44,664 nucleotides of DNA from IMG/VR virus record IMGVR_UViG_3300025009_000030, positions 1-44,664 of that record; one strand, written 5' to 3'. The position numbers were made by a program, and so were the translations under genes. How positions within the stretch are numbered: position 1 is the stretch's first letter; each line of letters opens with the position of its first letter. Below the pieces are notes generated by a model. That model was not told the origin of the DNA, ran no database searches, and saw only the letters and a program-made list of their open reading frames with translations. Below are positions 1 through 11,967 of this stretch, in pieces. The DNA comes from a virus.

Positions 1-127
1 AGAAACAACTTCCGGTTGTGCCTTCTGTAACTCTGCTATCCTTGCTTCTACTTCTGCTATCTGTTGTTGAACAATAACCTTCTTTGGTTGGTTACTGTTG
101 AACAGGTCGTGTGAACCCTGTACTTCC
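1..127. repeat. Left copy of 127-bp terminal redundancy
   Basis: This stretch is identical to the last 127 bases of the window (44538-44664). An overlap of exactly 127 bp at contig ends is what a k=127 assembler leaves on a circular molecule. A continuous open reading frame crosses the join, which supports true circularity or circular permutation. It is not likely to be a biological terminal repeat. Confidence 0.95.
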
Positions 128-3100
128 ATGTCTTTCAACTTCGCCTGTAACGGCATATAGGTTTCTTGAATGAACTTGTTGTAGAGTTCGTTCTTCTGTT
201 GGATAGTGGGATTAGTAAATTGTTCCAATGACTTCCTGAAATTGGTCATTTCAGAGGTCATTTGGTTTCTAATCTTGGTGAGTTCCGCTCTCCACTCTAT
301 TACTTTGGGGTCGTTGCCAGACATAGCAATCATAGCCCTGTCAGCAACCACGTTAATATCAGCATCTAGTTTCTGTGTTTCAGTCCACATTTCCTCGATG
401 GTCTGTTTGGTGAGGTTGAAATCTGCTTGTCTTGCTTCGTAGTTGTCGAAGTCTTTAGCAAAGTGTTCTCGCCACTTCTGGTTCTTCATATCGAAGAACT
501 TGTTGAAGTTCTCGTTACCGTCAAGAATAGACTTTAGAACTACATCGGCTTCCGGGGATTTGTTGGATAGTGCCTCAAAAATACCCTTATAGGTTTCTGC
601 CTGCCATTGAGTTAGTCTCTTGAACTCATCAGCGTTTATCTTTACCTGTGCTTCGTACTGCCTGCTCCAAACATCTTTCGTAACAATGTCTTTGATAGCG
701 TGTAACTGATCCCACGCCAACCACTTACCGTTAATCGTCTGCTCCCGAAGCATGAACATATCAGAGAGAATAGAGTAGGCAGCAGGTAGTCCTTCTGTCT
801 TTACCTGTGCGATAACATCTGGAACTCTGGATTGAATGTCTATCTCGGATAACTTGTTGATGTAATCGTTCCAGTGTAAGTCAATGTTATCGAAGGTTGT
901 AGCCAGGTCGGAGATGTTCTTCGCACCGTTGATACCGTTTATCAGCTCGTCATAGATACCAGTCTTTAGAAGTATCTCTCGGTAGAACTCTGGGTTTGTG
1001 GCGATCTTCTCATTCGAGTTGGCAAACTTTGACAGCACATCATCTATCACGACTTTGGCAACTACGGGGTCGTTGATATGTGATAAAGCACCATCTACAT
1101 CCGTAACCTTGCTAGAGCCTTCCAGAATACCTTTGAGCGTTTTTACTGTTTCTGGTGGCAAGGACTTGACTATCTCCGCAGGTATCTCTACTCTGCGAAT
1201 CTTACCCATTGCGTTCTTGTACTCAACAGCAAAGGACTGTCTGGATTCCACTGATTCAATCCACCTAGAACCTTTTGTGGCAAACCCGAATATGTCCCCA
1301 ACCTTTTTTATAGCCCTGTCAATTCCACCTTCCAGAAACTTACTGCCCATTGCGGTCTTATTCTTGTTCTTGAAGATAGAATCGGTGTTGTTCATCAGGT
1401 CTTGCGTGAACCCACCCTGAATATCCTGCCTTGCTACAGATGGTTCGTATTGAGCAACAAATTTATCCCAATCTATATATCCATAGTTGTTAGAAGCGAT
1501 CCTGGTAATCATGTTGTTTACAGCGTTGTAGAGCATATATCTTGGGTTGAGAGATAAGACTGCTAAAGACTGCAACGCCTTCATGGTGTGAGATAATCTC
1601 ATCCATCCTGGGTCGTTATCCTTGATCCCAAACCGTTCTTTCATAAATCCATCAAGGCTATCTGAAATGGAATTGATTATCTTGTATCCCAACATACTGT
1701 CGTTGTAAGGTAATGGGTTGTCCTTATTGGTAAACATCTGCAAGTCGATCTTCATAGCAGAGGTATCGCCATTCGGGAATAACGAATTGGCAGCGTCCAC
1801 CTTTGAGGGGTCAGCCATGTAAGCCTTTATAAGACTGTCAAAGTTAGTTCCCTCTTTGAAGTTCTTTAGTAAAGTGGCTTCATCCATCCCGAAGAAACGA
1901 GCATACTTGGTAAGGTTTGCCCTGTTCTCTACGGTCTTGTTGAAATCTTCAATAACCTTTGCAACCGAGCCACCATCCACCGCTTTCTTCAAAGCAGTAG
2001 CAACAGCAGCCCCAATAGGAGAGTTGAACTCCCTGTAATCCATGAAGTCCCTTGCAAGTCCAACTTCCTCGAATATGTCACCGATCTTCTGTGCTGTTAG
2101 AGCAGGGTCGGCTTGTGTGGCAGCCCGAATCAACTTGACTAAAGTGTTGCTGTCTTTCCCTGCGAGGTCATTCATATAGAACAAACGGTCTACAAGCGTG
2201 TACTCGAAGTTGAGAGCCTTTGCTTCTGGAGTTAATTCTTTAGCAACCTGTACTGACCTCTTGTTCGGGTCTTGAGCTTCCAGGCGTTTTGGCAATCCAT
2301 CATCCGTAAGCCCTGCGATCATCTTCTGGAATCTTGTGTAGTCAGCAGGTGCTTGATAAGGTATCTTTCCTTTGAGAGTAGACGGAATGTTCCCTTGTAA
2401 GAAGTTCTTGTAGGCATCCATAGCCCCAACAAAACCTTTAGAGCCATGTAACTTCCCACCTGAAATGAGTTCAACCGCACCATTAAAGGGGAAGGGAATA
2501 GCATCTACAACCGGATTACCTTGTGAGAACTTTCCTGCGTACTGTAAGGCGGGGTTTCCTTGCCTCTTACCAACCAATTCAACCATCTTTGCATTAGCAT
2601 AAGGGGCAACATTGAGAGGGTCTAGGATAGTCTGTAGTGCGAAGTCGTTAAGTTGTCCTTCAACCCCAAACCTCGAAATGAAATCTTGTTTGTACTTCTG
2701 CCAGTTATCAGGATCAGAAACGATCTGGTCACGAAGGTTATCAAGTGCCTTTGCCCCAACGGTAAATCCAGAGGGAATAGGTACAGGTTTACTCTCTCCA
2801 GAAGATATGTCCCACATATATCCTTCTGGTAGTGGTTTGCCTTCGCTCAAAGGAAGTAAGGCGTTGGCAGTTTTACCTAATGAAGTCCATGATAACTTAC
2901 CTGCCTTCCACGCTGCGCCAAGATTCCCAACAACCTCTTGAAAGTCATCATCCCCTGCGGAGGCTTGCATGATTACACCAAACGCACCAGCCACCGCCTC
3001 TGATAGGAAGTTGAATACCTTTTGTACACCTTCTTGTGCATACTTGAACTGAATCGGGTTGTTAGTTTCGAGCCAATCTCGAAGTCCGGGGTTAGCATCA

Positions 3101-4089: not shown

Positions 4090-4808
4090 TAGATTCTCCA
4101 GTTCACCAAGCCACTATCCCTGTAACCCTTATCTCCACCGTATCCGCCGCCACCCCAACTGTAGTCGGGAAGCGGAATTTCATACCCGCCAGCGTAGCCC
4201 TGATCCTCGCCACCACCATCATCTCCCCTTAACCAGTCTGTCATTTCTGGGAACATGAAACCGTATTTTTCAAAGAGGTAGTTGAAGGCAGTTTCTTCGT
4301 CAACACCAGAGGGGAATCGACTGTCAATTTCTGCCCTGAAACCATACTTATCCATGAAACCCTGCAACCAAGTTGGGAAGTCGGTGTTACTGTAATCCTC
4401 TGGCTTAAGGTTCATTCCTGCGCCCATAGGGGTATCAAGGGTTGTCTGTGGAGCGACACTTGAAGCCTGTGGTAGGGGAATGTTTCCGCCAGCACCAAGA
4501 GCGTTGTATGCGCCAACACCAGCGTTTCTAGCAGATTCCGTAACGGGAGTAACAGCCCCTACGGGTTTACCACCAGTTCCAGTATCGGTGTATCCAAATG
4601 GGTTGGGGTTGCCAACACCACCGCCAATCCACCCACCGCTTGTAGGAGTAGGGGTTGGGAGATTTGGGTTTCCCATACCAGCACCATACCATTGTCCACC
4701 ACCTGCTATATTGCCTAATTGCGCGCTTGCGTTGAATGGCTTTGGTAGCGGAACAACAGGTCTGTCTAAAATATTTTGTGCATCTTCTTGTCCGTAAGGA
4801 TTTGGCAT
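4089..4808 (-). CDS. Gly/Pro/Asn-rich structural protein, unknown
   Basis: Encodes 239 aa starting at an ATG with AAAGGAG 8 nt upstream. Residues 30-125 and 200-232 are dominated by G, P, N and T and are probably disordered. A compact, acidic and aromatic segment (about 140-195, FPTWLQGFMDKYGF...) looks folded. The gene lies between the portal cluster and the giant protein and overlaps the latter's GTG start. I do not recognise a family. An internal capsid or assembly protein fits the position only. Confidence 0.8.
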   Translation of the reverse strand: MPNPYGQEDAQNILDRPVVPLPKPFNASAQLGNIAGGGQWYGAGMGNPNLPTPTPTSGGWIGGGVGNPNPFGYTDTGTGGKPVGAVTPVTESARNAGVGAYNALGAGGNIPLPQASSVAPQTTLDTPMGAGMNLKPEDYSNTDFPTWLQGFMDKYGFRAEIDSRFPSGVDEETAFNYLFEKYGFMFPEMTDWLRGDDGGGEDQGYAGGYEIPLPDYSWGGGGYGGDKGYRDSGLVNWRI

Positions 4809-8906: not shown

Positions 8907-10421
8907 TTATAGTGGCGTTCTCGTTATCGTTTTTCCTGCGCTCTGTAAATCGTAGTAATCGTTGATTGTCAGGAATGGCAGGTTCTTGCTCACACAGTAC
9001 CAAACCAGCGCCCGAAGCCGCCAGGTTTCCCACATTGTTGTATCTGTGGCAGGGTCAATCAGTTTATGTCCATAAAATAAAATCGTCTTTCCTTCTGCAA
9101 TAGCCTGGTCAACTAACAACATGGCTGCTTGAATCGTTTCTCCTGAACCCATTCGCATTGTTGACCAAATCTCATAGTTGTTTGCTGCCACATAATCAGG
9201 AAATTCAGCAGGAGAGGTATAAACCTTTCTGCCAGTAAGTATCCCTGCTGCAATCGCGGCAGTTTTCACATCAGCATCATATCCGCCATTCGGATAAGAA
9301 AGGTGCATACTCGCTTTTGTTAATCCCATTCCATCCAATACGGTTTTTGCATCTGCAATTTTTGCCGTAGCGGTTGCCACGTCCACATCTGATAGTGTGG
9401 TCTGGTCAGTAGTATGGTTTGCAATCGACCATCCAGCCGCGTCCATTTCCAGTAATTCAGCAGTCGTAACAAACGCAGGGTCATTTTCTCCATCAATAGC
9501 ATCCGTCATCACATAAAAAGTTGCGGGTATACCAAGTGGTTCTAAAACATTTTTGAAGGCTTCGGTATAAACCGATTCATACTCATCATCAAAAGTAAGC
9601 ATGACTGCCGGAACGCCGCCGCCTTGCGGAATATTCCAACTGGTTTGCGTGAACGCCGCCGCGGGATTAAAATTTGCTGCCGCCAGCATTTCTTCTGCGG
9701 TTACCTCTCTATTTATTAACATGTAGTGGGCGTAATATCCAAGCGCCTTCCACGTATCTGTGCGACCAAGATAACACTGTGCAGATGCCAAAGCTCCAGA
9801 CCATGTACCAAGCTCAGTTAATGTTCCGCCTAGTTGAACACCTTTTCGATACGAATTAGCGCGGTCATTGGATTTAGACCATGTAAAACCAAGACATACC
9901 CAACCAGCATCTGCAACGCCAATATTCGTTAGCGATTTTACCGTTCCTCCTGCATCATAGGTAAATATTAATCGGTTGGTTGATGATTTGTTTATGAGGA
10001 TGTAGTTGTTACCATCCTTGCCAAGATTAATAATGTTATGTACCGCGTTGTCATCCCACGCGGCTTGTGGAATCTTTACCCAAATGATAATGCCGCCCTC
10101 TTCTGGGTCAAATGGAGCATCAAGACCAGCGGAATATAGGTTTACGGTGCTAGTTGCTCCATCAAAGTATGCTGATTTGTACCCGTCACCAATACCGGGC
10201 TGCCCTAGCGTAATCCCCGTATACGCACCATTCAGTCCATTCCCGCTTTGGTCTACTGCAACTGCACCCGATAGGTCGCCAAGAGTGAGATATTGCACAA
10301 GGTTCGCGCCAAACAGCGTTTTCATTGCAGTAATGTAGGCACTTTTATAAACACTTCCAGTTGCCACTCGCAACCTGCGTTTGCGATCTAAAATATTTCT
10401 GTGTTTCTGCGCGTTATTCAT
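8907..10421 (-). CDS. Tail spike/appendage: LamG-like domain + polysaccharide deacetylase (CE4)
   Basis: Encodes 504 aa. Residues about 35-250 form a LamG/concanavalin-like jelly roll, with a DQSGNGLNGAYTG start and AYFDGATS. Residues about 270-500 form a NodB-type deacetylase, with motif 1 TFDDE (276-280), motif 2 NHTTD (335-339), motif 3 YPNGGYD (386-392) and motif 5 YGHK (450-453). CE4 enzymes remove N- or O-acetyl groups from glycans with a metal held by Asp-His-His. Here the second His of H-x3-H appears to be Gln or Asp, so metal binding may differ. Location in the leftward structural block suggests a virion depolymerase-like part acting on host surface glycan at adsorption. Confidence 0.85.
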   Translation of the reverse strand: MNNAQKHRNILDRKRRLRVATGSVYKSAYITAMKTLFGANLVQYLTLGDLSGAVAVDQSGNGLNGAYTGITLGQPGIGDGYKSAYFDGATSTVNLYSAGLDAPFDPEEGGIIIWVKIPQAAWDDNAVHNIINLGKDGNNYILINKSSTNRLIFTYDAGGTVKSLTNIGVADAGWVCLGFTWSKSNDRANSYRKGVQLGGTLTELGTWSGALASAQCYLGRTDTWKALGYYAHYMLINREVTAEEMLAAANFNPAAAFTQTSWNIPQGGGVPAVMLTFDDEYESVYTEAFKNVLEPLGIPATFYVMTDAIDGENDPAFVTTAELLEMDAAGWSIANHTTDQTTLSDVDVATATAKIADAKTVLDGMGLTKASMHLSYPNGGYDADVKTAAIAAGILTGRKVYTSPAEFPDYVAANNYEIWSTMRMGSGETIQAAMLLVDQAIAEGKTILFYGHKLIDPATDTTMWETWRLRALVWYCVSKNLPFLTINDYYDLQSAGKTITRTPL

Positions 10422-11343: not shown

Positions 11344-11372
11344 TAGAATATATAATACGATTATGGTAAAAT
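11344..11372 (+). promoter_or_regulatory. Promoter of the large ncRNA (TAGAAT-17-TAAAAT, TGn)
   Basis: TAGAAT (11344-11349), 17-bp spacer ending TGG, TAAAAT (11367-11372). The expected start is about 11379, exactly at the first base pairs of the RNA's 5' hairpin. A second TATAAT at 11351-11356 lacks a matching -35. Confidence 0.7.
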
Positions 11373-11557
11373 AAATGCAGGACAATCCCTCCTCTCTTGT
11401 CCTGGGTGGGTCAGCTTGTTAGCAACCCCGTCCCCGTCTTAGTCACGGGATCAACGGGGCCCGGCGGTACAATTCCGCAGCCCACCCAATTAGTTCTTTT
11501 ACAATGTTTAGAAACAGGCTGCTCAGGTCTGCCAGGACGGTGAGGTAGCAGATGTAT

Positions 11558-11628
11558 GCCAGACACCTTAGCCTGATGAGGAGTAATCCGAAACGCTTTA
11601 TGCGTAGCTTAGCGCCCCCTAGTCTGGT
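11558..11628 (+). ncRNA. Hammerhead ribozyme, type I topology
   Basis: Core CTGATGA 11573-11579. Stem II GGA-GTAA-TCC 11580-11589. GAA 11590-11592. Stem III ACGC-TTTAT-GCGT 11593-11605. Cleavage-site A11606. Inner stem I pairs 11567-11572 with 11607-11612 (five pairs and one U-U); after an internal loop it continues with CCAGAC 11559-11564 / GTCTGG 11622-11627. All core bases match the hammerhead consensus, and the site triplet is GUA. The RNA ends leave through stem I. Cleavage would fall between 11606 and 11607 and leave the two halves held by stem I and the 12-bp outer stem. Confidence 0.85.
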
Positions 11629-11905
11629 TGGTTGGGGTCAGGCCGTCCACTTTAGCATCATGTTTCTAAACAAATGCTCCGAGCGTAATAGGCGTAGACT
11701 TACTGCCTTCTCATAGCTAACACGGGACGCGGTCTAACCAACAGTTATAGGGCAAACGGGTGCAAATCCCTACCGGAGCAACTAGCGATGATGTCGCTAA
11801 CAGTTTCCTTGTCCTGCAAAAACAAGGTGGTGGATACCGAGTGTTCACACACACGGCCCAAACCAAGCCATGACGACTGGCGGTATACAAATGAGTCGCC
11901 GAAAG

Positions 11906-11967
11906 AACTCCCTTGTGTTGACATCCCTCTCGTGATGAATGAGAGACCCACAGGGGAGTTTTGTTTT
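11906..11967 (+). terminator. Rho-independent terminator of the large ncRNA
   Basis: AACTCCCTTGTG (11906-11917) pairs with CACAGGGGAGTT (11949-11960) with one G-U. The inner hairpin is CTCTC 11927-11931 / GAGAG 11941-11945. The stem runs into TTTTGTTTT (11959-11967). Confidence 0.75.

Follow-up and report, generated by a model that had tools for sequence, protein, structure and literature searches.

Hammerhead ribozymes have been known in phages and prophages since about 2011, and phages also carry large structured noncoding RNAs, GOLLD and ROOL, near tRNA genes. Type I hammerheads have been described in PaP3, Bcep176 and HF1/HF2, and phage hammerheads assayed by others were active (Perreault et al., 2011, PMC3088659). 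Pseudoknots occur in hammerheads as well: in one known form loop I pairs with nucleotides beside stem II (PMC3088659), and in the pistol-like hammerhead a pseudoknot takes the place of helix II (PMC11300833).

The window analysed here is a 44,664-base virus record that encodes a large terminase, a major capsid protein and further proteins typical of tailed phages. Its hammerhead shares with those in PMC3088659 the core, the closed stems II and III, the NUH cleavage triplet and the intergenic position in phage DNA. Some of these published hammerheads also have a stem II that is very short, or mismatch U10.1-U11.1, as do some members of the family described below. The P0 × P1 / P2 × P3 frame of the family, with its conserved AAGTA, TAG and GTGA, in contrast, is not described in that paper as far as read. 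A pseudoknot organises the hammerhead both in the earlier pseudoknot hammerheads and in the family. In the latter, however, stem II is a simple hairpin, the two pseudoknots are located where stem I extends outward, and neither helix pair base-pairs with loop II. The pseudoknot at the shoulder of stem II, or replacing stem II, by which the earlier forms are recognised is absent from the window.

Hammerhead cores are common to the family and to RAGATH-1, HH9 and HH10 of Rfam; with these three models neither the window nor the family loci gave an above-threshold match, and L110 and L059 gave only weak ones at the level of the core. GOLLD and ROOL resemble the family in being structured noncoding RNAs of phage tRNA regions, and neither gave an Rfam match in the window or the family loci. 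A double-pseudoknot hammerhead was not found in the literature searched, which lay mostly outside subscription journals and contained no preprints, and one may have been published. We regard this form as a structural class of a known ribozyme that has no entry in Rfam 15, both of its pseudoknots being located in the outward part of stem I. The conserved and covarying frame is shared by cultured phages of Klebsiella, E. coli, Pseudomonas and Acinetobacter, in some cases directly within a tRNA array, which makes its role testable in infected laboratory strains.

The hammerhead core and its noncoding cassette

The hammerhead lies in a noncoding stretch flanked by leftward structural genes and rightward early genes. 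This cassette is opened by a putative promoter:

11364 to 11372, plus strand: putative extended -10 promoter box, TGGTAAAAT

The position of the box matches in the relatives L003, L006 and L008 (TGATAAAAT/TGGTAAAAT), and L004 has TATAAT; a consensus promoter scan did not list the box at 11364-11372. The cassette transcript likely starts downstream of it and probably ends at a hairpin and T-run near 11967. Between these ends lie a leader hairpin, a strongly folding element at 11403-11489 (z -3.7), the domain of the hammerhead and another tRNA-like element at 11675-11781. Both elements are tRNA-like in having 7-bp acceptor-like closing stems and a T-loop-like GGGTGCAAATCCC, and ATTAG/ACTAG stands 3' of both, as it does 3' of tRNAs in relatives. 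Neither, however, was called as a tRNA by ARAGORN or Rfam, and we rejected this identity. Further on, positions 11739-11841 match the wcaG RNA weakly (19.1 bits against a gathering score of 42, E 0.41), and the matched GTTTCCTTGTCCTG...ACAAGGTGGTGG of the window is 86% conserved in L006.

The preliminary description had claimed a complete hammerhead core at this locus, and reading the sequence directly bears this out: all core bases and the three stems are present, as follows.

11570 to 11572, plus strand: AGC, the 5' strand of stem I, paired to GCT at 11607-11609
11568-11611 and 11567-11612, plus strand: additional stem I pairs past a U.U mismatch
11573 to 11579, plus strand: core CTGATGA (C3 to A9), identical in 11 of 11 family sequences
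11580 to 11589, plus strand: stem II GGA/TCC with GTAA loop, read directly
11590 to 11592, plus strand: core GAA (G12 A13 A14), GAAAC being identical in 11 of 11 family sequences
11593 to 11605, plus strand: stem III ACGC-TTTAT-GCGT including A15.1-U16.1, from direct reading and the family alignment
11606 to 11607, plus strand: predicted cleavage site 3' of A11606 (H17), the 5'-OH product beginning at G11607
11607 to 11612, plus strand: GCT, the 3' strand of stem I, then TAG; conserved across the family alignment

Stem II has 3 bp and stem III 4 bp, both are closed by loops and stem I is open, as in a type I hammerhead. Stem I consists of 3 bp plus the two pairs beyond the U.U mismatch, and the NUH cleavage triplet is GUA. 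Of the parts that could make a tertiary contact between loop II and stem I, the GTAA loop is present; a UA follows stem I on the 3' side in other phage hammerheads, whereas the window has only the TAG at 11610-12. The plain secondary-structure minimum breaks stem I in the window, at a cost of 4-6 kcal/mol versus 0-6.7 in other phage hammerheads. The plain minimum of the whole RNA, in which pseudoknots cannot appear, was given no weight.

We measured how often such a core arises by chance against 1.14 Gb of first-order random sequence with the dinucleotide make-up of the window. A general type I descriptor matched the window once, with 0.0003-0.005 matches expected depending on the loop length allowed (0.0003-0.001 at this tightness). 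A looser descriptor, with loops of up to ~60, matched twice, with 0.05 expected. The Rfam hammerhead check proposed in the preliminary description went the other way: nothing in the window exceeds the RF00163/RF00008 cut-offs, and there is no match even at E ≤ 10 on 101 bases. L035 carries a clear phage hammerhead that the same models fail to detect, and most of the hammerheads in L059 fall below their threshold. Since the Rfam cut-offs thus reject clear phage hammerheads, the miss reflects a database threshold and not the lack of a defining ribozyme feature. An exact pattern made from this core, with stem III GC-extended, found no match, and BLASTN of the window locus against phages found none either. 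A relaxed pattern recovered ~50 ordinary phage hammerheads, which served as a training set. The covariance model R1, built from 19 phage type I hammerheads with the window left out, gave the window 21.9 bits (E 0.004 in 395 kb), a score slightly biased toward the window by the GTAA loop that the training pattern shared with it; the second-best score in the 4 kb around the hammerhead was 6.5.

The double-pseudoknot frame and its family

Among the phage hammerheads only those of L110, L114 and the window have (A/G)GTAG before and GGGT(G/C)A after the core at matching distances. BLASTN from L110 led to the Klebsiella Taipeivirus phages Magnus, Madison, UPM 2146 and MDA2066, to the Klebsiella phages BaqKoxi, 05F01 and DP01 and to E. 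coli Gamaleyavirus phages. Further steps added Pseudomonas phita81A and relatives as well as the Acinetobacter phages Highwayman and Acba_21. Besides the window, two metagenomic contigs have the same architecture. The family spans at least two named viral families and other phages, and the viral family of the window is a different one. R1, the model of ordinary phage hammerheads, missed the cultured members on account of their different stem II. No Rfam family matched the double-pseudoknot form above threshold, and R3, a covariance model of the family, found no match in 299 bacterial genomes, in a run that included no positive control.

Comparison of the members gives a common 5' to 3' order: P0, P1, AAGTA, P0', P2, hammerhead, TAG, P3, P2', P3', GTGA, P1'. 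Thus, as predicted from sequence comparison, the conserved frame is made of two pseudoknots, P0 × P1 and P2 × P3, with the ribozyme inside P2. In the window the elements are:

11505 to 11516 / 11661 to 11672, plus strand: outer stem of perfect 12 bp, in the minimum-energy fold; window only, outside the family structure
11527 to 11532, plus strand: P0 5' strand GTCTGC, pairs with GCAGAT at 11548-11553 and crosses P1
11535 to 11541, plus strand: P1 5' strand GGACGGT, pairs with GCCGTCC at 11642-11648
11543 to 11547, plus strand: AGGTA, window version of the family AAGTA, between the P1 5' and P0 3' strands
11548 to 11553, plus strand: P0 3' strand GCAGAT, from the family alignment
11559 to 11564, plus strand: P2 5' strand CCAGAC, pairs with GTCTGG at 11622-11627
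11615 to 11618, plus strand: P3 5' strand CCCC, pairs with GGGG at 11634-11637 and crosses P2
11622 to 11627, plus strand: P2 3' strand GTCTGG, from the family alignment
11634 to 11637, plus strand: P3 3' strand GGGG, from family comparison
11637 to 11641, plus strand: GTCAG, window version of the family GTGAG, preceding the P1 3' strand
11642 to 11648, plus strand: P1 3' strand GCCGTCC, from the family alignment

P2 is the outward extension of hammerhead stem I past an internal loop. The larger folded RNA that the preliminary description had drawn around the hammerhead is therefore real, and its pairing would hold the cut halves together, but the conserved frame is the double pseudoknot and not the 12-bp outer stem. 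CCCC/GGGG (11615-18/11634-37) had also been considered as a hairpin that would compete with stem I and disrupt it; this was ruled out, as comparison identifies it as the conserved P3.

In an alignment of 11 family sequences, 96.9% of the cells pair, compared to 72.9% after shuffling and at most 42% with slid partners. The covariation score is 0.655, compared to 0.182 shuffled and at most 0.13 slid, and two-sided changes occur at 26 of 36 base pairs, although some of the sequences are closely related and stand for fewer independent events than the cell counts. The alignment was fitted to a model with P1, P2, stem I and stem III. P1 (family helix 2) is paired in 97% of the cells, with two-sided changes at 6 of 7 pairs, and P2 (family helix 3) in 97.5%, with 7 of 8. 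P0 and P3 were left out of the fitted model and are for this reason less biased witnesses of the structure: P0 (family helix 1) is paired in 100% of the cells, with two-sided changes at 5 of 6 pairs, and P3 (family helix 8) in 93%, with 5 of 6, both helices having been chosen by inspecting the same 11 sequences. The core is invariant, and at position 17, where cleavage requires a base other than G, all 11 sequences have A, C or T. Sequence and covariation together establish the core, the helices and the family.

The window itself is very probably a member. A model of five members, R2, also built without the window, places it in the correct full-length register, though at no better than E 0.23 in 314 kb (E 0.0009 on the surrounding 1.2 kb). 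R3, built from ten members with the window left out, gives it 24.1 bits and E 0.0027 in 382 kb, end to end. The window is the top match of R3 and the sole convincing end-to-end one; other hammerheads match chiefly at the core, and the hammerhead-like motifs of PaP3 do not match R3. P0 × P1 and P2 × P3 are present at the family spacings, and AGGTA and GTCAG differ from AAGTA and GTGAG by one change each. When the flanks were shuffled and the core kept, the full four-helix layout arose 3 times in 388,562 shuffles, which is to be read as ~1e-5 at best since both the family and the window were known when the permitted distances were chosen.

The copy in the window is the most divergent of the family. 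This divergence, the short stem II, the U.U in stem I, the silence of Rfam and the lack of a hammerhead in its nearest relatives would all fit a decayed or chance hammerhead that is inactive. We consider this improbable, since all catalytic positions are intact, the chance of such a core is ~0.001 or less, and the full layout is kept despite different sequence in nearly every helix, where decay would be expected to break pairs.

Predicted cleavage and possible roles

The reading we prefer, with a probability of about 0.72, is that a conserved RNA of tailed phages, folded as a double pseudoknot, contains a type I hammerhead that would self-cleave, probably in the processing of tRNA or noncoding transcripts. 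In this structure the open stem I continues outward as P2, P2 is interlocked with P3, and the domain is closed by the second pseudoknot, P0 × P1. Cleavage after A11606 would be co-transcriptional, during transcription of the noncoding cassette, and leave a 2',3'-cyclic phosphate at A11606 and a 5'-OH at G11607. The pseudoknots may keep stem I in a shape that favours efficient cleavage. P1, P2 and P3 would hold both halves together, so that the new ends stay buried and the nicked transcript exposes none of them. Self-cleavage would most likely serve to process the tRNAs and tRNA-like RNAs transcribed from the tRNA/noncoding region of the phage. Counted against this explanation are the weak standing of the window, the weakest member, the absence of a hammerhead from its close relatives, the zero score in Rfam and the distance of some members from tRNAs.

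Alternatively, the pseudoknotted RNA could be the working molecule, a stable noncoding or protein-binding RNA, which the hammerhead merely matures or, with both halves clamped together, reversibly nicks and re-ligates. The cut ends fall inside P1, P2 and P3, the unpaired AAGTA, TAG and GTGA are conserved although distant from the active site, and several members lie within long stretches without annotated genes, all of which speak for such a molecule. We nevertheless think it unlikely, if less so than decay, since the helix sequences vary freely, the catalytic core is the best conserved part and no known RNA family matches.

The unpaired AAGTA and GTGAG stand in the distal P0 × P1 domain, outside the core, and the crossing P0 and P1 could compete with other folds. 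This would also suit a natural switch, in which self-cleavage is switched on or off by the distal pseudoknot as it senses a ligand, a tRNA or a protein. AAGTA and GTGAG would, however, also be conserved in an internal loop of purely structural function, there is no ligand candidate, and the gene neighbourhoods vary among the members, which makes a switch doubtful. Equally doubtful, in our estimate, is the broader proposal that the distal double pseudoknot is a sensor or protein-binding platform and the RNA a phage hammerhead switch that extends across several phage families and is tied to tRNA arrays.

Processing of tRNA transcripts, the use favoured above, can be compared with where tRNAs lie. 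In 05F01 the family RNA begins ~15 nt after tRNA-Phe and in DP01 it ends 5 nt before tRNA-Ser; in phita81A, BaqKoxi and PD205 it lies about 200-870 nt from tRNAs, and in the other members the scanned stretches yielded no recognised tRNA. The link between the family RNA and tRNA genes is suggestive and not general. The closest terminase relatives of the window have tRNA genes at the equivalent locus (Glu in L004, Tyr and Thr in L006, Pro in L007 and L008), and in L003 this site is almost empty. No hammerhead was found anywhere in the records of the terminase relatives L003, L004, L006 and L008.

Some further elements were seen in these phages. The close relative L003 has, at 157-204 (minus strand), the promoter and leader hairpin alone, directly followed by another hairpin. 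A conserved spacer, AAACCTCTTGACAATGTTT ... CCCCGCTTCCA, precedes the tRNA genes of L004 and L006 (approximately 4494-4575 and 2440-2515, both minus strand). None of 2000 shuffles was as good, and an H-type pseudoknot could form. It matches no Rfam family, and the HDV-like ribozyme suggested by its helix order was dropped, as neither the sequence hallmarks, judged by eye, nor Rfam supported it. Homology of the window domain to this spacer was also rejected (one 12-nt match, p 0.06-0.09, without significance). Among the family loci, L151, L154, L155 and L158 have matches to the Rfam STnc100 sRNA near 2590-3037, at or above the cut-off; in the Taipeivirus phages these lie ~1 kb downstream of the hammerhead RNA.

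Other phage hammerheads

The search also returned hammerheads of other layouts. L089, a phage unrelated to the window, has an ordinary hammerhead with A at the cleavage site at 75-134 (plus strand); it comes from a metagenome sample shared with the relatives L004 and L006 and is without the double-pseudoknot frame. The podovirus-like contig L035 has, at 4305-4480 (plus strand) and just upstream of a small terminase-like gene, a hammerhead with a 3-bp stem II and GTAA loop that is nested in outer stems of its own, and which the double-pseudoknot family models do not match. The phage contigs L059, L063, L075, L076, L081 and L112 carry ordinary hammerheads in series, 10 of them within 14 kb of L059, each directly before a gene start, as are the hammerheads in PMC3088659. 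Finally, the hammerhead of L080 at 9975-10092 (minus strand) has its predicted cut a single base ahead of the point where a phage tRNA-Gly begins, and the 3' strand of its stem I is the acceptor strand of this tRNA, so that cutting there would almost complete the maturation of the tRNA 5' end, with no need for RNase P.
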